Source of the DNA: Pseudomonadales bacterium
GTDB taxonomy: Bacteria; Pseudomonadota; Gammaproteobacteria; Pseudomonadales; Azotimanducaceae
Reading direction: 5' to 3'
Assembly (NCBI GenBank): GCA_030728785.1
Contig: JANQYP010000036.1
Span: 61,794 to 94,337 of the forward strand
Length of the DNA: 32,544 nt
The notes under the pieces are model-generated. The model did no database searches and had not been told where the DNA came from. It saw only the letters and a list, made by a program, of their open reading frames with translations. Shown one piece after another: positions 1,367 through 19,097 of the stretch; within the stretch, counting starts at the first letter, position 1, and each line of letters opens with the position of its first letter. A program made the translations under genes and the position numbers.

Positions 1367-3595
1367 TCAGTGATTAACTTTCCGCCGCGCCGCTATGACA
1401 TTGGACAACTGCTCAATTTGCTCAATCGTTCGCAACAATCGATTAATGGTACTGACCTCAATAATGATGCTCATAGTGACTCGATTATTGATCTTGTCGG
1501 TCTGCGAATTCATGGCAATCACGTTGGTTTCCTCTGCCATAAAAACACCGGTGATGTCATGCAGCAGGCCGCGGCGGTCATAGGCGCTCACCTCAATGGT
1601 GACTGGGAAGGTAGCAGTAACTTCCGCACGCCAATCCAGGCGCATCAGCCTACCATAACTGTCGGCCTGCAGCGCCTGCAAACAATCCTGGCAGTGTACC
1701 TCAACGCAGCTATCATCATTGATAATGCCGACAATACTGTCACCAGCCATAGGCCCACAACAGACCGAAAGTGAGTAATGCAGACCGCCGAGGCCGGATA
1801 TCAGTAACTCTGCCTGCTCCGTTGTTTCCTCATCACCCAGCAACAAGCTCAGTTGTTTGTCTTTGGTTTCAAGCTCCACCAGGTGCACCGCTGCCTCAAC
1901 GACATCAATGACATTGATGTCGCCGGCACCAATAGCCGCATACATTTCATTCACTTTCTTGTAGTTCAGCTCGGCCACAAGAGCTTCAATATCGACGTGT
2001 TCGACACCCAGGTGTTGCAGTTCCGTCGTCAATAATTGTTTACCTTCATCTGTGTTCTTGCGCTTGGTACGTAATCCAAACCAACTCTGTATCTTGGCTC
2101 GCGCCCGCGATGTTGTCACATAACCCAGGTGGGCATGCAGCCACTCCCGTCTCGGTTCAACGTCGTTGCCAACAATAATCTCTATTTGGTCACCAGACTT
2201 CAGCCGAGTATTCAGCGGCACAACCTTGCCATTGATCTTGGCACCGCGGCATTTGTGCCCAACTTCTGTATGCACTCGGTAGGCAAAATCCACCGGTGTA
2301 GCATTGGGGGTCAAGTCAACCACGTGGCCTTCTGGCGTAAACACATAGATGCGATCCAGACTAATCTCATCCAACAGCTCTTTTGAAATACCAGCAACGT
2401 CGCCTAACTCTTCACGCCAATCAAGAATCTGTCGCAACCACTCGATACGCTCGCGGTAGGCAACAGGCTCATCAGCCTGGCCGTGAGACTTGTATTGCCA
2501 ATGCGAGCAGACGCCCAACTCAGCCTTCTCATGCATCTCATAGGTTCTGATCTGAACTTCCAGAACTTTGTTTTCAGGCCCGATGACCGCTGTATGTAAT
2601 GAGCGATAGCCATTCTCCTTGGGGGAGGCAATATAGTCGTCAAACTCATGGGGCAGGTTACGCCATAAGTTGTGGACAACACCCAGAACTCGGTAACAGT
2701 CATTATCCTTCGGCACCAGAATGCGCACTGCGCGCACATCGTAGACCTGGGAAAACGTAATACCTTTGCTGCGCATTTTCCGCCAGATGCTGTAGATGTG
2801 CTTCGCCCGGCCGTCTAACTCAGCCTTGACCTTGATCATCTTCAACTTGTCATTCAGGGTAGCAATCACTCGGTCAATGTAACCCTGCCGATCACTGCGT
2901 TTTTCATCCAGCAGGCCGGCTATGCGCTTATAAGCCAGCGGCTCAACGTAACGGAACGACAGGTCTTCTAACTCCCACTTCAGATGACCAATTCCCAGGC
3001 GATGGGCCAGGGGAGCATAAATTTCCATGACTTCGCGGGCAAGACGTATGCGCTTTTCGGGTTCGGCTCGAGCAACTTCCCGAATAGCGCAGGTTCGTTC
3101 CGCCAACTTGATAAGGGCCACACGAACGTCATCAACCAGGGCAATCAGCAAGCGTTTAGCCTGTTCCAACTGGTCTTTGTGTTCACCCAGCACAGATTGT
3201 TCGGAGATACGGATATTGCTGATGGCCGCCATTCGCAGCACACCTTCCACCAGCGTCGCCACGGTTTCACCGAATTGCTTGCGAACATGATTGAGGGTGA
3301 TCTGGTTTTCACGCACGGCGCGATAGATGATGGCGGCGACAATACCCTCTTCATCCATGCGTAATTCGCTGAGAATATCGGCCATATCCAGACCAGTCTT
3401 ATAGCTACTGCGGCCTTCTGCCCAGATTGTATGGGTTTGGACCGCTTTCTCTTCGGCCTTTTCAGACAAATCACAAGCACCGCGGATTCGTTCAATATTG
3501 AAACCGGGACTCTTTTTATGCAGTTGTTGCAGCCACAACTCAATGTTGATGCTTCCATCAAAATGCAGTGGCTGCTCCTCTCTGACTTTTACCAT
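1367..3595 (-). CDS. relA: GTP pyrophosphokinase RelA ((p)ppGpp synthetase I)
   Basis: 742 aa with a synthetase core (DVRAVRILV...SPKENGYRSLHTAVIGPE), a TGS domain (YVFTPEGHVVDLTPNATPVDFAYRVHTEVGH) and a C-terminal ACT domain. The HD region is degenerate, as expected for RelA. Confidence 0.96.
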   Translation of the reverse strand: MVKVREEQPLHFDGSINIELWLQQLHKKSPGFNIERIRGACDLSEKAEEKAVQTHTIWAEGRSSYKTGLDMADILSELRMDEEGIVAAIIYRAVRENQITLNHVRKQFGETVATLVEGVLRMAAISNIRISEQSVLGEHKDQLEQAKRLLIALVDDVRVALIKLAERTCAIREVARAEPEKRIRLAREVMEIYAPLAHRLGIGHLKWELEDLSFRYVEPLAYKRIAGLLDEKRSDRQGYIDRVIATLNDKLKMIKVKAELDGRAKHIYSIWRKMRSKGITFSQVYDVRAVRILVPKDNDCYRVLGVVHNLWRNLPHEFDDYIASPKENGYRSLHTAVIGPENKVLEVQIRTYEMHEKAELGVCSHWQYKSHGQADEPVAYRERIEWLRQILDWREELGDVAGISKELLDEISLDRIYVFTPEGHVVDLTPNATPVDFAYRVHTEVGHKCRGAKINGKVVPLNTRLKSGDQIEIIVGNDVEPRREWLHAHLGYVTTSRARAKIQSWFGLRTKRKNTDEGKQLLTTELQHLGVEHVDIEALVAELNYKKVNEMYAAIGAGDINVIDVVEAAVHLVELETKDKQLSLLLGDEETTEQAELLISGLGGLHYSLSVCCGPMAGDSIVGIINDDSCVEVHCQDCLQALQADSYGRLMRLDWRAEVTATFPVTIEVSAYDRRGLLHDITGVFMAEETNVIAMNSQTDKINNRVTMSIIIEVSTINRLLRTIEQIEQLSNVIAARRKVNH

Positions 3596-3712: not shown

Positions 3713-5002
3713 TTACCTTGAGAAACACGCAATGGACTCAACGTGGGTAGTGTGGGGAAACATATCGATAACGCCCGCTGCTTCAAACCGATAACCTCCA
3801 GCTACCAAGATTGCTGCATCCCTGGCCAGAGTCACTGGGTTACAGGCAACGTACACTACCCTTTTGGGCTTGTGAGTTGCAAGTTTTTTGCAGACCGCCA
3901 GCGCACCACTGCGGGGCGGGTCCAACAGAACCTTATTGAAGCTGTGGAAATCAGGTATCTCGAGAGTCTCGCTAAACAAGTCACTGACACCAAACCGGGC
4001 GTTGCTGATGCCGTTAAGCGCGGCATTCTCCTGCGCCCGGGCGACGCTGGCAGGAGACAACTCAAGGCCTAGCACAGACGCCGCTGTGCGGGCCATGGGC
4101 AGGCTGAAATTACCAATACCACAAAACGCATCCAGCACCTGGTCTTCACCCTGCAAATCCAACAGGGCGATTGCCTGCTGAATCATCTGGCGGTTTATGA
4201 CCTGATTGACCTGGGTAAAGTCCAGTGGATGAAACTCGTAACTTAAATGATAGGCAGGCAGGCTATACACCAGGCGCTCGCGCCCATCCTGGGGGTAAAT
4301 CTTATGCACTGTTGATTCATTGCCGGGCTGCAGATAGATGGAAAACCCTGCCTGCTCACCCAGCAACTGCAACCTTGCGCTGTCCTCTGCCGTCAGGGGG
4401 CTGAGATGGCGAATCACCAATGCTGTCTCGGTGTCACCCACAGCCACCTCTATCTGGGGCACCGAGCGCGGCTCTGAAAGGTCGGCAATAGCCTGGGATA
4501 ATGCCGGAAGCTGTTCTCCAACAGATGGCTTAAGCACCTTGCAGGTTGCAATTTCAGCCACATAGGGCTTGAGTTTTTCGCGAAAACCGACCAAAACCCG
4601 CGCTTTTTTATCCACATACTTAACCCCCAGGCGAGCCTTGCTGCGGTAACCCAGCAAGGGCCCCATCAATGGTGGCAGAAGCATTTCAGGCTGGAATTGC
4701 GCCAGCGCATTCACCAATTGCTGCTGCTTGAACAGTATCTGCGCTCCCGGCTCGAAGTGCTGAAAACTGCAGCCACCGCAGTGACTTGCGGCAGCGCATG
4801 GCGGCTCTACCCGGTCTGCAGACGCCGTCACCACACTGCGAGTCTTGAAATAATGGCGTTTGTGCTTTCTGGCCCAGGGTTCGGCTACCACAACTTCACC
4901 GGCCAGCGCGCCCAGTACTGCCTGTTTACCGTCAGCGCTTAATGCATAACCATCGGGGTGCAGTGTGGTCAGGGTAATCGTGACTGGGTCATTATTTTTC
5001 AA
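3713..5002 (-). CDS. rlmD: 23S rRNA (uracil-5-)-methyltransferase RlmD/RumA
   Basis: TRAM-like N-terminus, Cys cluster CAAASHCGGCSFQH, SAM motif DAFCGIGNFSLP, and DPPRSGA / YVACNPVTLARD motifs. Confidence 0.95.
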   Translation of the reverse strand: MKNNDPVTITLTTLHPDGYALSADGKQAVLGALAGEVVVAEPWARKHKRHYFKTRSVVTASADRVEPPCAAASHCGGCSFQHFEPGAQILFKQQQLVNALAQFQPEMLLPPLMGPLLGYRSKARLGVKYVDKKARVLVGFREKLKPYVAEIATCKVLKPSVGEQLPALSQAIADLSEPRSVPQIEVAVGDTETALVIRHLSPLTAEDSARLQLLGEQAGFSIYLQPGNESTVHKIYPQDGRERLVYSLPAYHLSYEFHPLDFTQVNQVINRQMIQQAIALLDLQGEDQVLDAFCGIGNFSLPMARTAASVLGLELSPASVARAQENAALNGISNARFGVSDLFSETLEIPDFHSFNKVLLDPPRSGALAVCKKLATHKPKRVVYVACNPVTLARDAAILVAGGYRFEAAGVIDMFPHTTHVESIACFSR

Positions 5003-5025: not shown

Positions 5026-5928
5026 TCAGTCCGAGGAAAAAACCCCGGTGGAAAGGTAACGATCACCACGATCGCAGGCAATGGCGACAATCACGGCATT
5101 TTCTACTTCACGATTGATCTGCAACGCCGCTGCAACGGCAGCACCGGAAGAGACGCCGCAAAAAATCCCTTCACGGGTCGCCAGGGCACGCATTGTCGTC
5201 TCTGCCAGCCCCTGGTCCATATCAACCACCCGGTCCACCAGTTGTTTGTCAAAAATCCGCGGCATATACATTTCCGGCCAACGCCTAATGCCCGGTATTG
5301 AGGCGCCGTTAACGGGCTGCAAACCGACGATCTGGACACTGGGTTTAATCTCGCGGAAGTATCTTGAAACGCCCGTTATAGTACCAGTAGTTCCCATTGA
5401 ACTCACGAAGTGCGTCACTTCCCCACGTGTTTGCTGGTAGATTTCAGGACCCGTACCAATGTAGTGGGCCTGCGGATTATCCGGATTGGAAAACTGGTCC
5501 AGGACTTTACCTTGGCCTTGCTGCTGCATTTTTTCTGCCAGGTCGCGAGCGCCCTCCATACCTTCCTCTCTCGACACCAGCAACAGCTGCGCACCAAACG
5601 CCGACATAGCCGCCTTGCGCTCTGCACTCATGTGCGACGGCATGATCAGTATCATGCGATAACCCTTGATTGCTGCCGCCATCGCCAGGGCAATGCCGGT
5701 GTTACCGCTGGTCGCCTCGATCAGGGTATCACCGGGCCGGATTTCACCTCGGGCCTCTGCCGCCTGAAGCATATTCAGAGCCGGTCGATCTTTAACGGAC
5801 CCGGCCGGATTGTTGCCTTCAAGCTTAAGCAATAGGGTGTTACTGGTGTCTCCGGGTAAACGCTGTAAACGCACCAGCGGTGTACCGCCAACACAGGATT
5901 CTATGGTCGGATAATCGGTTTTTTGCAT
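5026..5928 (-). CDS. cysM: Cysteine synthase B (O-acetylserine sulfhydrylase)
   Basis: PLP lysine motif NPAGSVKDRPA, SGNTGIALAMAAA, GTTGTITGVSRYF. Confidence 0.95.
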   Translation of the reverse strand: MQKTDYPTIESCVGGTPLVRLQRLPGDTSNTLLLKLEGNNPAGSVKDRPALNMLQAAEARGEIRPGDTLIEATSGNTGIALAMAAAIKGYRMILIMPSHMSAERKAAMSAFGAQLLLVSREEGMEGARDLAEKMQQQGQGKVLDQFSNPDNPQAHYIGTGPEIYQQTRGEVTHFVSSMGTTGTITGVSRYFREIKPSVQIVGLQPVNGASIPGIRRWPEMYMPRIFDKQLVDRVVDMDQGLAETTMRALATREGIFCGVSSGAAVAAALQINREVENAVIVAIACDRGDRYLSTGVFSSD

Positions 5929-6050: not shown

Positions 6051-8405
6051 ATGATGTTGCGAGCGCTGCAAAGAAGCTCTGGGATTTTCCTCATCCTCGC
6101 AACTGGCCTGGTTGCAGTTGGCCCGCTTGTTGTACTGTTTTTTGTGGCTGAGAATTTAACCACCTTTGCTCGAACAGGCCTACTGCTGTTCGGCCTGTTG
6201 CCCTGCCTGGCGGCTGGCTGGCTGTATCATTTTGTTACCACAAGCCTGCTGCAACCCCTGAGCAAAAGCCTGGCTTTATTGCAAAAAGCTTTAGTGCAAA
6301 AAGATTTACTTCGCAACGATTTACTGCAAAAAGATGCCGCGACACAGATCCCTGCCCTGCCCCACAGAGGGATCAACCGTCTTGCCGACTGTCTGTCACT
6401 GCCCAGGCTGCTGGACACCTGTCTGCGACACAAAGACCAATTGGCCGATGCTCGCGAAGCCCGCGCCAGACAGGCCGCTGAAGCCGCTGCAGAGACGCGC
6501 AACAAGGCCTGCGAAGAAGAAATTTCAGCATTACACCAGGCTCGTACAGAAGCCGTCACAGCCCTTGCCTGCCAACAGGATAACAGCAGCACCTTAGAGC
6601 ACAATCAGCGGCTGCTGCTGTCAATGGCTGACACCAGCCTGAATACCATCGTCAGCTGTACTAATCTGTTAGCAAGCCCTGGCGCCGCTACCGCTGTACT
6701 CCTGGCCAGGTTAAATGCAGCCGCAAAACGCCTGCTGTTCTATCAGGCTGAACTGCGGGCGCTGACGACTGATCTGAGGGATGAAGCCGAACCAAGCAGT
6801 GCCGAATTTGTCCTGCGCGACTGCATTGACCAGGTCATCATGCTGCTGCACCCAACACTCGCGCAACAGAATTGTGAACTTCTGCCAGTTTATGACGACA
6901 GTTGCCAGGTCAACCTTGTAGGCCAGCAAACCAGGCTTCAAGCCATGTTGTTCAACTATCTTCTGGCAGTAATCAACAGCAGCTTAAACAATCACAGCTT
7001 AGACAATCACAGCTTAGACAATCAGGGTTTAATCAAGCAGGGTTTAAGCAAGCGCAAGATTGCCGCTAAGTTTGCGCCGTCTGCCAGCAGCAGTTTTTTG
7101 TGGCATATCAGCCTGGCCAGCAACAGCCAGAACACCCCTCAGCCTGACCGGCTGATATTGCGTCTTGGCCAGGGACTGAGCATGCCTGCAGCGCCACTGA
7201 CGGCTCGCCTGGACAGGCTACTGGACATGTGCGATGGCATCCAGGAGAGCCAGCAACTGAGTCTGCCGGTCAACTGTAGCCACACCCCGGTACACACCTG
7301 CCCAGTTGGGCTGACGGCGCGGATTTTTGCCCAGAATCCCGTCCAGGAAGCAGGGCTGCACAATCGCCTCAGCCAACTGGGCATTAATGTCCAGACTCAT
7401 GGCACCGATGTCAGCCTGTGTTTTATCGGCGCCCAAGCACACAGCGATATTGTTAATATTGCCGGTGCTTTCAGCCCAAAAACTCATATTCTGCTGCTTA
7501 ACAACAATCGCTTATATGGCCGCAGTGACTGGCTGGCACTGCCGCGACCCTTGCAGCAGACAGAATTCATTAACCTGATGACGACAACCTTCCCCATGGG
7601 CGCCGACCAACGGCTGAACGTTCTGATTGTCGACGACGACCATCACGCCCGTCTGTTTCTGGCAGCGCTGTTACGCCAGGCGGGCTATAACGTCATTGAG
7701 GCTGCAGATGGCCTTGCCGCCCTGGACATCATCGCCACACATGCCGTCGACCTGGTATTTATGGACATCCACATGCCGCGCATGAACGGCCTGGAAGCTA
7801 CCCGCGAACTGCGCGCCAGCCTGTCACGGCAACTGCCGGTCATTGCCCTCACCGCTCACCTGATGGACACAGAGCGGGATGCTGTGCTTGCCGCAGGCAT
7901 CAACGATATCCTGATCAAACCCCTGGATGTTGACACCCTCAGCAGGTGCCTGACGACCTGGCTTGGCGGCGCGCCGGGAAGTGCCAACAATGGCGACGGG
8001 GCTGCGAAAGAACCCACCCCGAGGGCTGTTTTTGATGTGAACCTGGCGTTAAAAATCGCCAATCAGCAACCCGACCTGGCCCTTGAAATGCTTGAATTGT
8101 TTGTCCAGGCGATCCCTTTTGAGCAACAGCAGATAACCCAGGCCGTGACGGCCAACAAACCAGAATTACTGCACCGATTGATCCATAAACTCAACGGTGC
8201 CAGTCGGTATTGTGGTATTCCGAGGGTGCAGGCTGTCCTCGGCGAACTTGAGACGCTACTCAAGACGGGCGCAGAAGGTCAGGCTCTGGCGATCCAGCGC
8301 GTCCACAACGAACTGACCCTTCTGCATGCCTGGTATGGCCAGAACCCTGAACCTTTAGCTGCCATGCCGCGCACCCAACTGCGCCGCCTGCCGCCTGGCG
8401 ACTAA
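6051..8405 (+). CDS. gacS: GacS/BarA-position hybrid sensor with degenerate kinase core and intact REC and HPt domains
   Basis: Located next to cysM-rlmD-relA as in Pseudomonas. Two N-terminal TM helices, REC domain (LIVDDDHHARLFL...LVFMDIHMPRMNG...LTAH...IKPLD) and HPt (LLHRLIHKLNGASRYCGIPRV). The H-box and ATP-binding motifs are not recognisable. Confidence 0.8.
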   Translation: MMLRALQRSSGIFLILATGLVAVGPLVVLFFVAENLTTFARTGLLLFGLLPCLAAGWLYHFVTTSLLQPLSKSLALLQKALVQKDLLRNDLLQKDAATQIPALPHRGINRLADCLSLPRLLDTCLRHKDQLADAREARARQAAEAAAETRNKACEEEISALHQARTEAVTALACQQDNSSTLEHNQRLLLSMADTSLNTIVSCTNLLASPGAATAVLLARLNAAAKRLLFYQAELRALTTDLRDEAEPSSAEFVLRDCIDQVIMLLHPTLAQQNCELLPVYDDSCQVNLVGQQTRLQAMLFNYLLAVINSSLNNHSLDNHSLDNQGLIKQGLSKRKIAAKFAPSASSSFLWHISLASNSQNTPQPDRLILRLGQGLSMPAAPLTARLDRLLDMCDGIQESQQLSLPVNCSHTPVHTCPVGLTARIFAQNPVQEAGLHNRLSQLGINVQTHGTDVSLCFIGAQAHSDIVNIAGAFSPKTHILLLNNNRLYGRSDWLALPRPLQQTEFINLMTTTFPMGADQRLNVLIVDDDHHARLFLAALLRQAGYNVIEAADGLAALDIIATHAVDLVFMDIHMPRMNGLEATRELRASLSRQLPVIALTAHLMDTERDAVLAAGINDILIKPLDVDTLSRCLTTWLGGAPGSANNGDGAAKEPTPRAVFDVNLALKIANQQPDLALEMLELFVQAIPFEQQQITQAVTANKPELLHRLIHKLNGASRYCGIPRVQAVLGELETLLKTGAEGQALAIQRVHNELTLLHAWYGQNPEPLAAMPRTQLRRLPPGD
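6275..6334. repeat. 15-bp x4 in-frame tandem repeat in the gacS linker
   Basis: TTTATTGCAAAAAGC / TTTAGTGCAAAAAGA / TTTACTTCGCAACGA / TTTACTGCAAAAAGA, encoding LLQKA-LVQKD-LLRND-LLQKD. Confidence 0.85.
6975..7052. repeat. 15-bp x ~5 in-frame tandem repeat in the degenerate ATPase region of gacS
   Basis: Units such as AATCACAGCTTAGAC and AATCAGGGTTTAATC, encoding LNNHSLDNHSLDNQGLIKQGLSK. Confidence 0.85.
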
Positions 8406-8439: not shown

Positions 8440-8814
8440 TCAGTTGGAGAGCACCACAAACGCCAGGGCAAACTCAGCCTCATCAGAAATGGACAGGTGC
8501 ATTTGTTCTACCCCGAGGGTTGCGGCACGGGCGGCAGCCGCGCCTGACAGACTGATCTGCGGCGCATGGCCTGGCTTTCCGACCACGGCGATCTGCACAA
8601 AGTGAACACCACAGGACATGCCCGTAGCCAGCGCCTTTGCCACCGCCTCTTTAGCAGCAAAACGTTTGGCGACAAAAGCTGCGGAAGGATTCTGTTGATA
8701 GACAAGCATTTCTGATTCGGCAAGGATCTTGTGCACAAACCGGTCGCCCCAGCGCTCAATAGAGGCCGCAATACGTTCGATTTTCACCAGGTCTGTGCCG
8801 ATGCCGATAATCAC
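8440..8814 (-). CDS. acpS: Holo-[acyl-carrier-protein] synthase
   Basis: [15 protein letters not shown] and FVAKRFAAKEAVAKALATG motifs. Confidence 0.95.
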   Translation of the reverse strand: MIIGIGTDLVKIERIAASIERWGDRFVHKILAESEMLVYQQNPSAAFVAKRFAAKEAVAKALATGMSCGVHFVQIAVVGKPGHAPQISLSGAAAARAATLGVEQMHLSISDEAEFALAFVVLSN

Positions 8815-9596
8815 CTTGCCTGACCCTGCGATAACACGCCACCAAAACCATCGCGCCGAAACAACTCACGACTTTTCAGGGGTTTGCCGCCTAGCAAGGG
8901 GGCAAATGCTGCGCGGGTAATGTGCTTGGCACTCTGGTCTGTGGCCAGGGACGAAAAGTCACCAGCGGCAATGGCGAGCAGGTGCTCACCGGGAAAACTG
9001 TCGGCCGCGGCGGCGTCCGGCCGGTCTACGGGGTAGAAGCCTTCGTCGGCAACAAACTCGTAAAACCGGCCGGGCTCGACAGCCGCTCCACGCTCAGCGT
9101 CAACAGTAAAGCTGATGCCAAATCCCATCTCCTGCAGCAAACCCAGCTCAAAGCGGCGTAATGCCTGCTGATAGTGGCGTAAGCGCGGCTCAACATTGGT
9201 CGCAGCGGCCGGCGCAGCGTCGCTCGAAAGGCTCGCCAGCAACATCTGGTATTGATTAAACAGGCCGGGCACTGCTTCATACTTTCCCAGCACCCGAACC
9301 AGCAGTTCGTTGGCATAGATACCCAGCAACAGGCTGTCACCCGCAAGGGGAAAACCAGCGGGCAGAAACTCAGCATGTTTGACAGTGCGCAATTCGCCGC
9401 GCCCAAAACATGAAACTAACAAGGGGGTAAAGGGCTGCCATGTCGCCTGCTGGCGCCCGCGTTTGCCGCGGGCGCCGCGGGCAACAGCACTCACCCGCCC
9501 GGCATCACGCACCAGCAACTCAACAATCAGGCTGGTGTCACGGTACTTGCGCGTATGCAGGATATAGGCCGGAGAAAGCCCATCAGATATCGTCAT
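8811..9596 (-). CDS. recO: DNA repair protein RecO
   Basis: [40 protein letters not shown]-terminus; syntenic with era and acpS. Start placed at MTISDG (9596) rather than the ORF-track start at 9617. Confidence 0.92.
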
Positions 9597-10488
9597 AACC
9601 CAGACTCTTGAGGGCACGTTCGTCGTCAGACCAGCCAGACTTTACTTTTACCCAGAGCTTCAGCATGACCTTATTCTCCAGTAATGATTCAATATCCTGG
9701 CGTGCTTCGCTGCCAATACGCTTCAGCCGCGCGCCACCTTTACCGATAATAATGGCCTTCTGGCCATCACGCTCGACAAGGATCAAGGCGTCGATGTGCA
9801 GAATTTTACCTTCCGTAACAAAACGTTCGATCTGGATAGTAGCCGCATACGGAATCTCTTCACCTAACTGCCTGACAATTTTCTCACGGATAATCTCTGC
9901 CACCAGGAAACGTTCACTGCGGTCGGTGACCTGATCGTCAGGAAACATAAAGGGACCAACCGGCAGTTTGGCCTCAATCAACGCTTCAAGGGTCTTCAGG
10001 TTGTCGCCGTGAGTCGCTGAAACCGGAATTATCTCGGCGTTCGGCAACCGTGCCTGAAGCATCTGTAACTGGGGTAACAAAACACTCTTGTCCTTCAGCA
10101 GGTCAACCTTGTTGATCACCACAATCACGGGAGCTTTGCTTAACTTGATGGCTTCGGCGGTAATCTCGTCATCACTCTGCCACTCTGTACGATCAGTGAC
10201 AAACACTACTACATCAACGTCCCGCAGCACACTCCTGGCGTTTCGGTTCATATAACGGTTAATGGCTTTTTTGGCATCACCGTGGATACCCGGAGTATCA
10301 ACGTAGACCGTCTGGATGCCGTCGCTGGTTTTAATCCCCAGCAATGTGTGTTGTGTGGTCTGGGGTTTGCGGGAAGTAATGCTCAGCTTCTGGCCGAGGA
10401 TATAATTCAGCAGGGTTGACTTGCCGACATTGGGTCGACCAACAATGGCGACATAGCCGCAGCGTTCACTGACAGATGATTCATTCAT
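9583..10488 (-). CDS. era: GTPase Era
   Basis: [45 protein letters not shown], and KH domain ([17 protein letters not shown]). Confidence 0.97.
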
Positions 10489-11768: not shown

Positions 11769-12578
11769 TTATTCGATCCAACCACGACGGGAAAACAGCG
11801 GCATCCCGGAGTCCCAGTGGAACCAGACAGCAAAAGCCTTACCAACAATGTCCTCTTCTGCCACCATACCCCAGTAGCGACTGTCACTGCTACGGTCGCG
11901 GTTGTCACCCATCATAAAATACATGCCGTCCGGCACAACCCACTCCTGCGGACCATTGCCGGGAAACGGACTGCGGTGAATCAAGTGCTCTACACCGCCA
12001 ATCGTTTCCGCATAGACCTCGTAGTCGGGTCTGTCTGGCGGCATTCTGGCGACAAAGGTCTGGGGCTGCTCGACACCATTAATAAACACTATCTTGTCTT
12101 CGTAACGGATGGTGTCACCCGGGATACCAATCACACGTTTGATGAAATATTCATCTTCATGGGGCGGCACAAACACCATCACATCGCCATTGGCTGGCTT
12201 GTCAACGTCAATTATCTTGGTGCCAATCACTGGCAGGCGCACACCATAGGCATATTTATTCACCACAATAAAGTCCCCCACCAGCAGGGTTGGGATCATT
12301 GACCCGGTGGGGATCTGGAACGGCTCGATAAGGAAAGAGCGCAGTATCAGGACCGCAAACAATACCGGAAAAAACGAAATGGCATATTCTACAACCACGG
12401 GCTCTTTCAGTACTGCCTGCTGCGCCTGCTCTATCGCCTCACTGGCTGCACCTGCCTGGCTTTCCAGCAAGGCCGCCGCAGCACGACGCCTGGGCCGCAG
12501 GACCAGGTTATCAAACAACCAGATGAGGCCGGTTACCAGCGTTGCCAGCACCAGAAAGAGCGGGAAGTTAATACTCAT
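11769..12578 (-). CDS. lepB: Signal peptidase I
   Basis: [24 protein letters not shown] (catalytic Ser), [11 protein letters not shown] (catalytic Lys), [16 protein letters not shown]. Confidence 0.97.
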
Positions 12579-14374
12579 CTGTCTACCTTAAGGACGGCCA
12601 GGAATGCTTCCTGGGGGATTTCGACGCTGCCAAACTGCTTCATGCGCTTTTTGCCCGCCTTTTGCTTTTCGAGCAGCTTCTTTTTGCGGGTTATGTCACC
12701 GCCGTAACACTTGGCGGTGACATTCTTGCGTAACGCCTTGACGGTCTGCCGAGCGACGATCTGGCCGCCAATGGCTGCCTGGATAGCCACGTCGAACATC
12801 TGCCGGGGAATCAATTCCTTCATCTTCTTGGTGAGGGAGAAACCTTTGTTCCGAGCATCGTCCCGATGCACGATTATCGACAGCGCATCAACCTTTTCAT
12901 TGTTGATAAGCACATCCAGGCGATCCAGGCGAGCAGCCTCAAAACGGTCAAAACTATAGTCCAGGGAAGCATAACCCCGGCTAACCGATTTAAGGCGATC
13001 AAAAAAGTCCAGCACCACTTCATTCATGGGAATATCGTAGGTCAACGACACCTGCTTACCGACAAACTGCATATCCTTCTGGACCCCACGCCGCTCGACA
13101 CACAGGGCAATAACACTGCCCAAAAATTCCGCCGGCATTAGCATGTTGACCCGGGCGATGGGTTCGCGCATCTCGTCAATACTCGAAGGATCTGGTAACT
13201 GGGCCGGATTGTCGACCTTCAACACCTTGCCGCTTTTGGTCAGCACTTCATAAACCACCGTAGGCGCGGAGGTGATCAGGTCCAGGTCATACTCACGCTC
13301 AAGGCGCTCCTGCACAATCTCCATGTGCAACATGCCGAGAAAGCCACAGCGGAAGCCGTTACCCAGGGCGTCAGAACTCTCCGGCTCATAAACCAGCGAC
13401 GCGTCATTCAGCGTGAGTTTCTCCAGGGCATCCCGAAAATTTTCAAAATCATCTGCACTGACCGTAAACATGCCGGCATAAACCTGCGGCTTGACCTTTT
13501 TAAAGCCCGGCAGTGTGGGGACATCCGGTGTACTGGCGAGGGTAATGGTATCACCCACCGGCGCACCCTTGACGTCCTTGATACCCGCCACCAGAAAACC
13601 TACCTCACCAGACTGGAGCAGCTTGGTCTCTTTGCGCTTGGGCGTAAAAATACCCACCGAGTCCACCTGGTGGATCTTACCGAGGGATTTGAGGATGATT
13701 TTATCCTTCACGGCAATCTGACCCTGCATGACTCTGATCAGGGACACAACACCGAGGTAATTGTCGAACCAGGAGTCGATAATCAATGCCTGAGTAGGCA
13801 AATCACGGGCTTCAGCCGGTGGTGGAATCACTCGAACCAGTTGTTCGAGCAGTTCATGGACGCCAACCCCGGTTTTAGCGCTGACTCGCAGGGCTTCAGA
13901 GGCATCGATTCCAATAATTTCTTCGATTTCCTGAATCACGGTTTCAGGGTCTGCCTGGGGTAGGTCGATCTTGTTCAGCACCGGCAGCACCTCAAGACCC
14001 TGCTCGATCGCTGTATAACAGTTGGCTACTGACTGGGCTTCGACACCCTGGGCCGCATCTACCACCAGCAATGCACCTTCACAGGCGGCCAGTGACCGGG
14101 ACACCTCATAACTGAAATCTACATGCCCCGGCGTGTCGATAAAATTCAACTGGTACTGATGACCGTCGTCTGCGTTGTAATACAGTGTCACGCTCTGGGC
14201 TTTAATGGTAATCCCACGCTCGCGCTCAATGTCCATGGAGTCCAGCACCTGGGCCCCCATGTCGCGCGCACTCAAACCACCACAGACCTGAATGAACCGA
14301 TCGGCCAGGGTCGACTTGCCGTGGTCGATATGAGCGATAATCGAAAAGTTTCTAATGTATTGCGTTTCGGCCAA
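12575..14374 (-). CDS. lepA: Elongation factor 4 (LepA)
   Basis: [36 protein letters not shown]-terminal [24 protein letters not shown]. Confidence 0.98.
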
Positions 14375-14461
14375 TTGCTAACCACGGCACTGTATGCCGC
14401 CTCAAAAACAAAGCGGTGAAGTCTAATGTATTCGCCGGATATACGCTATGCACAAGTGTTC

Positions 14462-14493
14462 GTCCGGCGGTCCGGCGGTCCGGCGCACCGGCG
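14462..14493. repeat. 8-bp x4 tandem repeat in the lepA-mucD gap
   Basis: GTCCGGCG x3 followed by CACCGGCG. Confidence 0.9.
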
Positions 14494-14520
14494 ACTATTC
14501 CCGCTTACCGCACAAATGCC

Positions 14521-15915
14521 TCAGCCGGGGATCTTAATGACCAGGAACTCAGGCCGCTGGTCCCTGACAATCCGCACGGGTATGGCCAGGTCCCGCGGCA
14601 ATTGTTCGATCATCTTGCCGAAGCCCTGCACCGAATCTACCCACTCACTGTTGATAGTAGTAATAATATCGCCGCGGCTGATGCCTGCCAGCCGGGCCGG
14701 GCCATCTACCACGCGCGTGACCAGCACACCCTTATCAACCCTTAGGGCGGCTTTCTCGTCGGCGGTCAGATCGCGCACATCCAACCCCAGCAAGTTAGTG
14801 CTATCAGCCTGGGGCCTGTTGTTGGCTGGCGCCTGGCTGCTTGCCGTGTCTAACAGACCCACTTTGACCTGCAGGGTCTCGCGCTTGCTGTTCCTGACAA
14901 TCAGCACATCGACCTCGGCGTTCGCCTGGGTTCGGCCGACAACATGAGGTAAATCCGACGACAGATCGATGTCCTTACCATCAAAGGCCAGAATAATATC
15001 ACCCTCTCGAAGCCCGCCTTTTTCCGCAGGACTTCCGGCAAACACCTGGGTCACCAGCGCACCTGCAGCACGATCCATTCCAAAAGACTCAGCCAGGTCG
15101 CTGTCAACCCGCTGGATCAGGACCCCTAACCAGCCACGGGAAACACTGCCTTTAGCCTTCAACTGGTCGACCACTTCCATGGCAACGTCGATTGGTATGG
15201 CAAAAGACAAACCCATAAAGCCACCAGAGCGGGTGAAGATCTGGGAATTGATGCCCACCACTTCACCATCAAGATTAAACAGTGGCCCGCCAGAATTACC
15301 GGGATTAATCGCCACATCAGTTTGTATGAAGGGTACATAGTTACCGTCAGCTTCCATGGGCAGGCTGCGGCCTTTGGCACTGACAATACCGGCAGTGACG
15401 GAATACTCAAAACCAAAGGGCGACCCAATGGCAACAACCCACTCACCCACTTCCAGCTTTTCAGACTTACCCAGTTTCACCTTGGGCAGATCCTTGGCGT
15501 CAATTTTCAGCAGCGCCAGATCTGACAGCTTGTCTGACCCTACCAGAGTGGCTACTCGCTCGCGCCGGTCGCTCAAGGCCACCAAAATTTCATTGGCACC
15601 CTCCACCACATGGTTATTGGTCAGAATATAACCATCTGCAGAGATGATAAACCCGGAGCCCGCAGATGGCCGCGGCGCATTATTCTGGCGCGGTATATCG
15701 CCAAAGAAGCGACGGAACAGTTCCGGCACTTCTTCTTCGTTGTAGTACTGCTGTTGGCGCTTATCCGCGGGTCGGGTTGCGGTAATATTGACGACCGTTG
15801 GTGCTGCCTGTTTTACCAGCCGCGTGAATTCCGGCAGCGCCGCCGCGCTCACCAGCCAGGGCATAGTACCGAGCAGCAACAGGACGACAAACGACAACCG
15901 CTTTTGTCTGATCAT
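14521..15915 (-). CDS. mucD: DegP/HtrA-like periplasmic serine protease MucD
   Basis: Signal peptide MIRQKRLSFVVLLLLGTMPWLVSA, trypsin-like triad regions (TNNHVVEGA, LLKIDAKDL, NPGNSGGPLF), two PDZ domains. Start placed at 15915; the ORF itself extends to 15987. Confidence 0.94.
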   Translation of the reverse strand: MIRQKRLSFVVLLLLGTMPWLVSAAALPEFTRLVKQAAPTVVNITATRPADKRQQQYYNEEEVPELFRRFFGDIPRQNNAPRPSAGSGFIISADGYILTNNHVVEGANEILVALSDRRERVATLVGSDKLSDLALLKIDAKDLPKVKLGKSEKLEVGEWVVAIGSPFGFEYSVTAGIVSAKGRSLPMEADGNYVPFIQTDVAINPGNSGGPLFNLDGEVVGINSQIFTRSGGFMGLSFAIPIDVAMEVVDQLKAKGSVSRGWLGVLIQRVDSDLAESFGMDRAAGALVTQVFAGSPAEKGGLREGDIILAFDGKDIDLSSDLPHVVGRTQANAEVDVLIVRNSKRETLQVKVGLLDTASSQAPANNRPQADSTNLLGLDVRDLTADEKAALRVDKGVLVTRVVDGPARLAGISRGDIITTINSEWVDSVQGFGKMIEQLPRDLAIPVRIVRDQRPEFLVIKIPG

Positions 15916-15970
15916 CAATTTCGGGCCTCCATGAATAGCTTGTCTTAAGTGTTGGTTTTTCTGCGGCTCA

Positions 15971-16351
15971 TCAATTGCAGCGCACATTCAATGCGTCCAA
16001 CATACGCGCTTTACACAACAACAGACCAATCCCAAACCCAGCCACAGCACCCAGCAGCACGGCGCCGTCGCCGCCAGCAAAAACGCTGCCGGCACCACTG
16101 CCTGCTAACAAGCCAGCCAGAGGCAATAACAGTGAGTGCCAGAGCAGACCCAGACCAGCACTGCTGCCAAGGCCAAGAACAACCGTTTGCGGAGCCTCAT
16201 CCGTGGTCGAAAGCTCGCCGAAGGCGGGGAGATAAAGGGAAGTTGTGCGGTCACCACAAGGGGTGCCACAGGCATGACAGCCGGCAGCACTGGCACTGAC
16301 CCAAAGCCCGCCTTTGTCACGCGCAATAATATGGCCTGTCACTTCGAGCAT
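15971..16351 (-). CDS. rseC: RseC/MucC-family membrane protein
   Basis: N-terminal Cys motif GCHACGTPCGDR, then two TM helices; located between rseB and mucD as in the algU-mucABCD operon. Confidence 0.8.
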   Translation of the reverse strand: MLEVTGHIIARDKGGLWVSASAAGCHACGTPCGDRTTSLYLPAFGELSTTDEAPQTVVLGLGSSAGLGLLWHSLLLPLAGLLAGSGAGSVFAGGDGAVLLGAVAGFGIGLLLCKARMLDALNVRCN

Positions 16352-16397
16352 GGTTCAGGGTCGCCTCAGATAAAAAACTGCAGCCTTTACAGCCGCC

Positions 16398-16442
16398 AGG
16401 TAGCAGGTAGCACGTAGCAGGTAGCAGGTAGCAGGTAGCAGG
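16398..16442. repeat. 7-bp x ~6.4 tandem repeat in the rseB-rseC gap
   Basis: AGGTAGC AGGTAGC ACGTAGC AGGTAGC AGGTAGC AGGTAGC AGG. Confidence 0.95.
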
Positions 16443-16462
16443 GCCGAGGCTTAACAGGGTGT

Positions 16463-17518
16463 TTAATAGATAACCGGCTCCACCGACTCGGCAACGCGTT
16501 TGGCCGTATCCACCGGCACTTCACCGACAACAGTGATCTGCTGGGTAGAGCCTTTCAGCCTGCGGGTAATCACAACGGTGCCACCCATGTGGGTGACCAA
16601 CTCACCAAGGGCTGCCTGGCCCTGACCCTGGCGCTCAACAAATACGGAAAATGTAGCCAGCCCGTCAGTGAACAGGACTCGATCCTGGTTTGGCATCTGC
16701 ACAGCCTTGAATCCGCGCGGCAGCCAGGACACTCTCCATGCCGGCTGCTGGGACGGCTGCACTTCGCTCAACAGCGTAGGCGGCGTAATGGAAAGCTGGT
16801 GTTGCACTCGATCTTCACCCAGGGCGCTGACCAGCGCTGCAGGTGGTACTTTCAGGCCGATATCAATCCGAGAAAACTGAAACACCTCAAGTACCCGACC
16901 CCGATTGACCAGGTGGGATTGCAACAGCAAGCCGGTTTGCTCATCAAGCCACAGGCGATAGCCATACCGATCATCATTTTTTGGGGTGATACTCAGCACC
17001 ACGGCAGCGCGACCGGCAATGCGATCCTGACCCAGCATGGCAAAGTGATAAACGCCCTGGTAAGCGCTGAGCTTGTCACTGAAGGCGCGCGTAAAAGGCC
17101 CCATTAGGACTTCATGATCAAGATCAACAGCATGGGAATTTACATGATTACACACCACCAGATCACCAGCGCGGACAATTTCCCGAGGCTCGCCGTTCAA
17201 CTGTGAAAGCCTTTCAAACTCCTTGCCATCGCGAAACTCATGGGCCACCTGGACAGTGTCAAACTGGTAACCACGCATGTAGGTAAAAATACCTTCGTAT
17301 GACTGCTCTCGCAGCGCAATGCCCATTTTCTCAAGCCAGGCACCCGCTTCATCATCCCCTTTTAGACTTTCGCCGGCCGCCACAGCGCTGGCAGAGAACA
17401 TGGCCAGCAACAGCATGAGCCTGCCTAGGAACTGGCGGGCGGAAATCGACCATGGGCAACTCAGCCGCGAGGCTCGGGACCCTGGTTCAGTGTTTGCGAA
17501 AAAACCCGTTCTGGTCAA
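16463..17518 (-). CDS. rseB: Sigma-E factor regulatory protein RseB/MucB (start uncertain)
   Basis: AWLEKMGIALREQSYEGIFTYMRG and EFRDGKEFERLSQLNGEPREIVR, typical of MucB/RseB; syntenic. Confidence 0.9.
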   Translation of the reverse strand: MTRTGFFANTEPGSRASRLSCPWSISARQFLGRLMLLLAMFSASAVAAGESLKGDDEAGAWLEKMGIALREQSYEGIFTYMRGYQFDTVQVAHEFRDGKEFERLSQLNGEPREIVRAGDLVVCNHVNSHAVDLDHEVLMGPFTRAFSDKLSAYQGVYHFAMLGQDRIAGRAAVVLSITPKNDDRYGYRLWLDEQTGLLLQSHLVNRGRVLEVFQFSRIDIGLKVPPAALVSALGEDRVQHQLSITPPTLLSEVQPSQQPAWRVSWLPRGFKAVQMPNQDRVLFTDGLATFSVFVERQGQGQAALGELVTHMGGTVVITRRLKGSTQQITVVGEVPVDTAKRVAESVEPVIY

Positions 17519-17585
17519 TGCTCACCCTCGCTGGGATATCACGCTGTCAATCAGTGGACTATTGTGGAACTGCATACTTGAACTG

Positions 17586-17663
17586 TTTAACTGGTCTGTT
17601 TAATTGGTTGGGTAGCTGGTCTGTGTAGCTGGTCTGTGTAGCTGGTCTGTGTAATGGGTCTGC
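17586..17663. repeat. 13-bp tandem repeat in the rseA-rseB gap
   Basis: GTAGCTGGTCTGT x3 (17612-17650) plus GTAATGGGTCTGC; more degenerate copies upstream from about 17586. Confidence 0.92.
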
Positions 17664-17707
17664 CGGGCTTCGCTGGGACCTGGAGCAGGGCCCAAAAAGT
17701 ACCGGTC

Positions 17708-18352
17708 CTACTGGTTGCCCTGAGCTTCAAAAAGTACTGTCATGGCGTTCGGGTTCATTCGCACCATCTGGTCGTGCTGGCGCAGATAGTTGCGCAATTG
17801 CCGCTGTCTGGTTTCATCCAGGGCCTTTAATTCAGTCTGGCCATCTACAGTTTCATACTCTGGCGCGGCAGCAAGGTTCTGGCCTGGCAATGATTGCCCA
17901 GAGGGCATCGCATCCAGGGCATATGTCGGGGAGGGCAAGCTTCGGGCTGGCTCGCCGCCAGCCACTGGCGCACTGGTAGCGCCACCATCGAATTGAGGTT
18001 GCATGCCCACAAACACGGCAATAACCAGTGATGCCGCCAGGGCGAGACCACCCGCCGGCCGCAGCCAGGCTGCAACAGGACGCGTCGGCAACGTCTCTGC
18101 CAGGCTGGCACCCTGCCCGTGAACACCTTCGTCCTGGAAAATTGCGGCACTGATGCTGGCATGTAAAGCCAGGTGTTGCTGTTGGCTCAGGTGAACACTG
18201 CCGCGGGTAACGGCACTGGCGTGCTGTAAACCCAGCCATTCATCGTGCACCGCCGCATCAGCTTTGTATTGCCGCAGCAGTTGATGGACCTCAATCTCAC
18301 TGGCCTCGTCATCAATCCAGGCTGACAATGATTCTTTTAATCTGTCCGTCAC
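17708..18352 (-). CDS. rseA: Anti-sigma-E factor RseA/MucA
   Basis: MTDRLKESLSAWIDDEASEIEVHQLLRQ N-terminal anti-sigma domain, single TM, C-terminal periplasmic part; downstream of rpoE. Confidence 0.88.
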   Translation of the reverse strand: MTDRLKESLSAWIDDEASEIEVHQLLRQYKADAAVHDEWLGLQHASAVTRGSVHLSQQQHLALHASISAAIFQDEGVHGQGASLAETLPTRPVAAWLRPAGGLALAASLVIAVFVGMQPQFDGGATSAPVAGGEPARSLPSPTYALDAMPSGQSLPGQNLAAAPEYETVDGQTELKALDETRQRQLRNYLRQHDQMVRMNPNAMTVLFEAQGNQ

Positions 18353-18381
18353 TTCATAACCTCGCTTGCCCTTTCTGGACG

Positions 18382-18414
18382 ACTGCTCGTCAACTGCTCG
18401 TCAACTGTTCGTCA
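18382..18414. repeat. 11-bp x3 tandem repeat in the rpoE-rseA gap
   Basis: ACTGCTCGTCA ACTGCTCGTCA ACTGTTCGTCA. Confidence 0.9.
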
Positions 18415-18469
18415 ACTGAGCGCTTTTATTCTGACCGCCTCAAAAAAGCGCCCACTGCATTTCTCCGCT

Positions 18470-19045
18470 TCAAGCCAGAGCTGCAATCTTCTTTTCTATC
18501 GCTTCCCGAGCGCGAAAGATCCTTGATCTGATCGTACCGACAGGACAATCCATCACACCTGCAATTTCTTCGTAACTCAGACCTTCAAATTCACGCAAAG
18601 TTACCGCCACCTTCAATTCTTCCGGCAAGTCATCGATGGCCTTATAAACAACGGCCTGCAGCTGGTCTCGCGCCAGACTGTTCTCTGGATTTTCGATATC
18701 ACTCAAGGCCAGGCCGACTTCCTGATACTCACCCTGGTCAACGTCTATATCGGTATCTGGTGGCCGCCTGGACTTGGATACCAGATAATTTTTAGCTGTG
18801 TTGATGGCGATCCGGTACAACCAAGTATAAAAGGCGCTGTCCCCGCGAAATCCGGGCAAGGCTCTGTAGGCCTTGATAAATGCCTCTTGGGTGACATCAA
18901 GCACTTCGTCCTGGTCGCGCATATAACGACTGACCAGGCTCACAATGCGGTGCTGGTACTTCAATACCAGTAAGTCATAGGCCCTTTTATCGCCACGCTG
19001 CACACGCTCGACCAGCTGCCGATCAGTCTCCGCTTGTGCTATCAC
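18470..19045 (-). CDS. rpoE: RNA polymerase sigma factor RpoE (AlgU)
   Basis: LVERVQRGDKRAYDLLVLKYQHRI...GDSAFYTWLYRIAINTAKNYLV...LREFEGLSYEEIAGVMDCPVGTIRSRIFRAREAI. Start placed at a GTG (19045) preceded by AGGAG; the ORF starts at 19063. Confidence 0.96.
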   Translation of the reverse strand: MIAQAETDRQLVERVQRGDKRAYDLLVLKYQHRIVSLVSRYMRDQDEVLDVTQEAFIKAYRALPGFRGDSAFYTWLYRIAINTAKNYLVSKSRRPPDTDIDVDQGEYQEVGLALSDIENPENSLARDQLQAVVYKAIDDLPEELKVAVTLREFEGLSYEEIAGVMDCPVGTIRSRIFRAREAIEKKIAALA

Positions 19046-19097
19046 CGACACTCCTGCCACCATCTTTGACTGGGTTGCCGGCCAAATTCATGAACTG

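Follow-up and report, generated by a model that had tools for sequence, protein, structure and literature searches.

The gacS locus and the domains of its product

The window, meaning the whole stretch of 32,544 nucleotides that was analyzed, contains a 784-codon open reading frame (6051–8405) in the position of X in the gene order relA-rlmD-cysM-X-acpS-recO-era. This arrangement is that of the GacS/BarA locus, and intact BarA genes in other families of the order likewise lie beside acpS, recO and era. By position the frame is the GacS/BarA ortholog. A preliminary description had reached the same assignment from synteny and the C-terminal REC-HPt, and both the curated models of the neighboring genes and the Pfam REC and HPt matches agree with it. 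The features of the locus are as follows.

1367–3595, minus strand: relA (curated NCBIfam model)
3713–5002, minus strand: rlmD, the anchor of the locus across the family (NCBIfam)
5026–5928, minus strand: cysM, upstream synteny anchor (NCBIfam)
6051–8405, plus strand: kinase-dead GacS/BarA ortholog, 784 aa (Pfam, NCBIfam, synteny models, clade-wide orthologs)
6084–6230, plus strand: two hydrophobic segments with a very short loop, aa 12–60 (sequence inspection; low-confidence model helices 3–32 and 37–89)
6594–6779, plus strand: degenerate DHp helical hairpin, aa 182–243 (profile alignment to intact GacS DHp; model helices 118–206 and 212–243)
6621–6623, plus strand: codon of Ser191, at the position of the phospho-acceptor His (profile alignment; column survey in 18 proteins)
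6798–6986, plus strand: remnant of the first half of the CA domain, aa 250–312, with the N-box Asn replaced by Ala306 (profile alignment, structure model)
6963–7307, plus strand: low-confidence stretch where the ATP lid and G1/G2 boxes are expected, aa 305–419 (pLDDT <50; no DxGxG/GxGxG)
7311–7589, plus strand: region of alternating strands and helices, aa 421–513 (model secondary structure; weak profile match, 23%, to the corresponding part of intact GacS)
7620–7943, plus strand: REC domain, aa 524–631, phospho-acceptor Asp572 at codon 7764–7766 (Pfam PF00072, 1.3e-28)
8085–8330, plus strand: HPt domain, aa 679–760, phospho-acceptor His712 at codon 8184–8186 (Pfam PF01627, 4.3e-11)
8440–10488, minus strand: acpS, recO and era, downstream synteny anchors (curated models, family neighborhoods)

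Further along the window (12575–19063) lie lepA, a gene for a DegP/HtrA-type protease and rpoE, all ordinary genes.

The frame is uninterrupted over all 784 amino acids. A Pfam scan of the protein at E≤1 returned Response_reg and Hpt plus two sub-threshold chance matches, and neither HisKA nor HATPase_c, even at that threshold, in the core that the preliminary description had called dead. Applied to three intact GacS proteins of other families in the order, the same scan did detect HisKA, HATPase_c, REC and HPt, so the missing domains do not reflect poor sensitivity. D572 and H712, said earlier to be preserved, were confirmed at the codons listed and lie in intact Pfam domains. Among NCBIfam models BarA and LetS match best, through the C-terminal part only. 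The protein scores 182 bits against the BarA equivalog cut-off of 890 bits, again with its C-terminal part only; GacS genes of the outgroups likewise fall below 890 bits, yet score 652–882 bits across most of the model.

Residues 182–308 align with the DHp domain and the first half of the CA domain of intact kinases (profile alignment, probability 98.2, E = 2.7e-14), and the region is therefore a decayed kinase core rather than an unrelated insertion. The sequence SMADTSLNTIV, beginning at residue 191 (nt 6621), occupies the place of the H-box. The profile alignment runs through it without a gap, pairing the His with Ser191, the Glu with Met192, the Arg with Asp194 and the Pro with Ser196, and the Leu and Asn of the box are retained as L197 and N198. 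The absence of the phospho-acceptor His, as first proposed, is thus upheld, but the suggestion that about three residues are missing is not borne out by this ungapped alignment. MAFFT, unlike the profile method, places a gap at the H-box, and the exact register thus varies with the alignment used, but under both methods the site lacks a His. The catalytic Asn of the N-box aligns with Ala306, and there is no DxGxG or GTGLGL box, in keeping with the original reading of this region. The protein has lost both its ATP-binding domain and the histidine of DHp.

An AlphaFold model built from seven sequences has a mean pLDDT of 56, rising to about 85 in the HPt domain, and we relied on it solely for the REC and HPt domains and for the broadly helical character of the DHp region. 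Residues 421–513 are probably the pseudo-receiver that GacS has between CA and REC. The hydrophobic segments at aa 12–60 form a probable membrane anchor with no periplasmic sensor domain.

Loss of the kinase core in a clade of the family

We compared rlmD-anchored neighborhoods in 60 genomes of the family. Thirty have a homolog at the gacS locus, nearly all lacking HATPase_c. Pfam finds HPt in 28 of these 30 proteins and REC in 24, with HisKA in three and HATPase_c in two. A search of genomes also returned homologs in the same genus and family, and a profile scan of genome contigs with a four-sequence alignment gave two close relatives, HKST-UBA224 and UBA4475, the other matches being unrelated hybrid kinases.

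Full-length kinase-dead proteins occupy the locus in g1, g2, g9, g15, g25, g56 and part of g23. Together with shorter forms they make a graded series at a single position, from the full-length dead protein through one with the CA domain deleted, a REC-HPt stub (357 aa in G007) and HPt-only proteins to loci with no recognizable gacS. The most degenerate forms are the HPt-only proteins of g23, of about 290–540 aa, which retain the His. The CA-deleted protein (L170 of G034, 1299–2711) has a HAMP-like region and a DHp domain with an intact SHEVRIPLNG box; the whole ATPase domain has been deleted in frame, REC-HPt comes next, and Pfam accordingly finds HisKA without HATPase_c. It is possibly an intermediate, or a DHp domain that serves as an acceptor in trans.

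The window was drawn from an incomplete assembly of 72 contigs, and an assembly or sequencing error could in principle mask a normal core. The same lack is seen in independent assemblies of more than 20 species, which refutes this explanation, and we give it practically no weight. A hidden frameshift, raised as a concern at the outset, is likewise discounted, because orthologs of other species share the degenerate core in open frames. The loss of the core is clade-wide, and is neither a private mutation, an artefact nor a fresh pseudogene. The unusual rewiring of the Gac pathway suspected from one genome is therefore broader than was thought, being common to the clade.

In the sister genus g57 the core is intact (G117 and G133); HisKA and HATPase_c are found by Pfam in the former (L185), and the latter (L186) has the same motifs. 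In a tree of CysM, RecO and Era a branch with support 1.000 sets the kinase-dead group apart from g57 and the remaining genomes, the deep nodes within the kinase-dead group being poorly supported. This tree, read with the GacA and hybrid-kinase states of the upper non-syntenic genomes set aside, implies four or more losses of the gacS locus.

The preliminary description had allowed for a second, intact gacS elsewhere in the genome. In 16 genomes with the degenerate protein, the present one included, a search found no second BarA-like kinase at E≤1e-80, and this possibility is rejected; the equivalent search in ten outgroup families of the order gave a long match at E≤1e-196 in all ten, nearly full length in nine. 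Some g23 genomes differ. G027 (L226), G139, G077 and G128 encode another BarA-like HK-REC-HPt kinase of about 970–996 aa, which in G027 and G139 lies about 33 kb from the gacS remnant on the same contig. It is a candidate replacement kinase.

Conservation of the relay residues

Among 18 full-length kinase-dead proteins the column that once held the phospho-acceptor His contains 11 different residues and never His. D528, D529, D572 and K623 are each present in all 18, and H712 is kept in 16. The exceptions are G013 and G072, and the C-terminus of the G072 protein looks frame-shifted. Across the 30 syntenic homologs, conservation reaches 90% or more in just eight columns: A557, D572, P624, D662, L688, D691, H712 and G716. 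Mean pairwise identity in the 18 proteins is 0.21 for the core, and 0.38 for both REC and HPt. The ratio dN/dS (omega) between the congeners G003 and G004 is about 0.17 for the core, 0.12 for REC, 0.19 for HPt and 0.30 for the N-terminus; these are Nei-Gojobori values from the one informative pair, pairs with the present genome being saturated. By these measures of sequence change the entire protein is constrained, and the relay residues most. As single cases, the HPt His is changed to Ser in G013 (L162) and the REC Asp to Asn in G077 (L178), both in open frames, and judging from these substitutions the two proteins may have lost relay function.

Two rival explanations were weighed against these patterns. 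One is slow pseudogenization, in which a dispensable gacS is rotting from the inside and awaits removal. The graded series within the clade, from full length through HPt-only to at least four losses of the locus, is what such decay might produce. But frames of 620–780 codons remain open across genera, the catalytic residues of REC and HPt are near-invariant and dN/dS is well below 1. Slow pseudogenization is thus largely refuted, and we consider it very improbable; the earlier view that a 784-codon open frame does not look like a decaying pseudogene is sustained by the open frames of the orthologs and the low omega. The other explanation is a pseudokinase scaffold resembling DivL, in which the DHp-like remnant heterodimerizes with another kinase and modulates it, REC and HPt being secondary. 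The dead core is indeed under purifying selection (omega about 0.17) and can still be aligned to DHp. Yet its identity across the clade is 21% against 38% for REC and HPt, and G007, the g23 forms and, for CA only, G034 have dropped the core yet keep the HPt. A scaffold therefore seems improbable to us as the main role.

Candidate partners of the protein and a probable kinase-less relay

Counted by hand without regard to the relatedness of the genomes, and scoring GacA as absent where a genome was not among the matches listed, GacA is present in 25 of the 30 genomes with the gacS locus compared with one of the nine without it (Fisher, 1.6e-4). A hybrid kinase with the architecture PAS-PAS-HisKA-HATPase-REC, counted in the same way, is present in 20 of the 30 and one of the nine (p = 0.006), some of these calls being partial or weak matches (G004, G025, G001, G157, G077). 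That reduced genomes lose many regulators bears on both tests. Parallel losses of gacS, GacA and the hybrid kinase are seen in g25 (G113, G140, G158), g15 (G147; G019, G109) and g28. G060 (L164) is an exception, encoding GacA and a portion of the hybrid kinase yet no gacS between cysM and acpS; its gacS may have relocated.

In the present assembly, which is 85% complete in 72 contigs, gacA was not found, although four sister species in its genus have GacA. In G003 uvrC adjoins gacA, and uvrC is likewise missing from the present assembly, so a gap is the likely reason and loss of gacA from this genome is rejected. CsrA is encoded on the same contig as the window. Further HPt proteins, ChpA for example, occur in several carriers. 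In G029 (2.1 Mb, 96% complete) the sole HPt above the cut-off is that of the dead GacS. This genome has kept the dead GacS (L171) and GacA, and a search for CsrA in it found none; GacA may have another output there, or CsrA may lie in a gap.

The kinase core has been lost but the relay domains are kept under selection, and the protein is therefore probably an adapter between a different kinase and GacA. We think it fairly probable that gacS here encodes a kinase-less phosphorelay shuttle, fed in trans by another kinase and passing phosphate to GacA. This had been proposed from the single sequence, and it gains support from the retention of D572 and H712 against a scrambled H-box, the co-occurrence with GacA and the hybrid kinase, and the sole HPt of G029. 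As the phospho-acceptors of both receiver and HPt are kept, we infer that the protein is able to take up phosphate in trans, which His712 would then hand to GacA. The membrane anchor and the coiled-coil/DHp-like hairpin probably still provide location and dimerization. From its co-occurrence, the leading candidate for the donor is the co-inherited PAS-PAS hybrid kinase, and the flow would run from its H1 and D1 to H2 of the dead GacS and thence to GacA. The retained GacS receiver might be an alternative entry point, a buffer or a drain. It is also possible, though here we lean slightly to doubt, that throughout the clade the sensor and kinase function of Gac has passed from GacS to this unlinked PAS-type kinase, with GacS reduced to an obligate REC-HPt adapter, or in some lineages to a bare HPt.

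Reverse phosphotransfer likewise calls for REC and HPt, and the active-site residues of REC are intact. The protein might thus, as the preliminary description also allowed, be a phosphate sink or GacA phosphatase, retrieving phosphate from H2 to D1 to water and keeping the pathway off until GacA is charged in some other way. But the HPt-only forms of g23 have no receiver of their own through which to drain phosphate to water, loss together with the hybrid kinase better suits a forward relay, and the charging of GacA in G029, with its one HPt, would go unexplained unless small-molecule donors are involved. We regard a sink as unlikely.

LadS is a hybrid kinase of the 7TM type. In P. aeruginosa it signals from H1 to D1 of LadS, then to H2 of GacS and on to GacA, using only H2 of GacS, and the isolated GacS-H2 domain suffices (Chambonnier et al., PMC4866733). 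In the shuttle reading the HPt of GacS would similarly be the acceptor for another hybrid kinase, with the candidate PAS-PAS hybrid in place of LadS as donor. GacS of P. aeruginosa is an active kinase too, whereas here a dead form is fixed over many genera; by this analogy the clade looks like a natural endpoint of the LadS to GacS-H2 arrangement. Compared with the tripartite HK-REC-HPt proteins GacS of Pseudomonas and BarA of E. coli, the present protein shares the locus, both relay phospho-acceptors and homology over DHp and half of CA, but has no phospho-acceptor His, no ATP-binding domain and no apparent periplasmic sensor domain. RscS of Vibrio fischeri works via the HPt of SypF (PMC5019070), again one hybrid kinase signaling through the HPt of another protein, as would be the case here; SypF is itself a sensor kinase, unlike the present protein, and its output is unrelated. 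DivL of Caulobacter is a catalytically inactive histidine-kinase relative that has been retained, as has the present protein, but it is an allosteric partner of CckA (reviewed in PMC12189002), whereas the conserved part here is the relay residues of REC-HPt. The Caulobacter hybrid kinase CCNA_03265 also lacks the conserved His and keeps the receiver Asp, and its authors suggest that it may be charged by an HPt or a heterodimer partner (PMC11481889); it is a single protein and not a GacS ortholog, unlike the clade-wide protein described here.

Few global regulatory pathways have been studied as thoroughly as Gac/Rsm, and GacS, as its sensor, is taken to be the fixed top. The open-access literature searched yielded no naturally kinase-less GacS. 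Loss of the kinase with retention of the relay residues suggests that the relay half is the indispensable part. If the sensor and kinase function has indeed passed to the PAS-type kinase, a tripartite kinase has been split naturally, the pathway keeping its output while exchanging its input. The clade also offers a natural experiment on input exchange in phosphorelays, with the L137/L211 family as a concrete candidate donor. Annotation pipelines may call such proteins histidine kinases, thereby counting a kinase that is unable to work.

The candidate in the present genome, L137 (contig C51), is a frame of 984 codons that lacks an HPt, and is the one HK-REC hybrid without HPt noted among the kinases found. 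Its full-length ortholog in G029 is L211 (34% identity over 903 aa), and the kinases found in that genome include no other HK-REC hybrid. The hybrid kinase was not found in the carriers G002, G089, G106, G007 and G137 or in the HPt-only g23 genomes; its catalytic motifs are intact in nearly all orthologs inspected. The N-terminal part of L211 matches orthologs in most genomes with a dead GacS. As a query it gave only cross-matches to PAS regions in g57, and in four outgroups three such cross-matches and one case with nothing. This N-terminal region, about 240–300 aa of the hybrid kinase (L137, 2749–5601; L211, 1620–4265, both minus strand), aligns across the clade and matches no Pfam family. 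It is possibly a new sensory domain.
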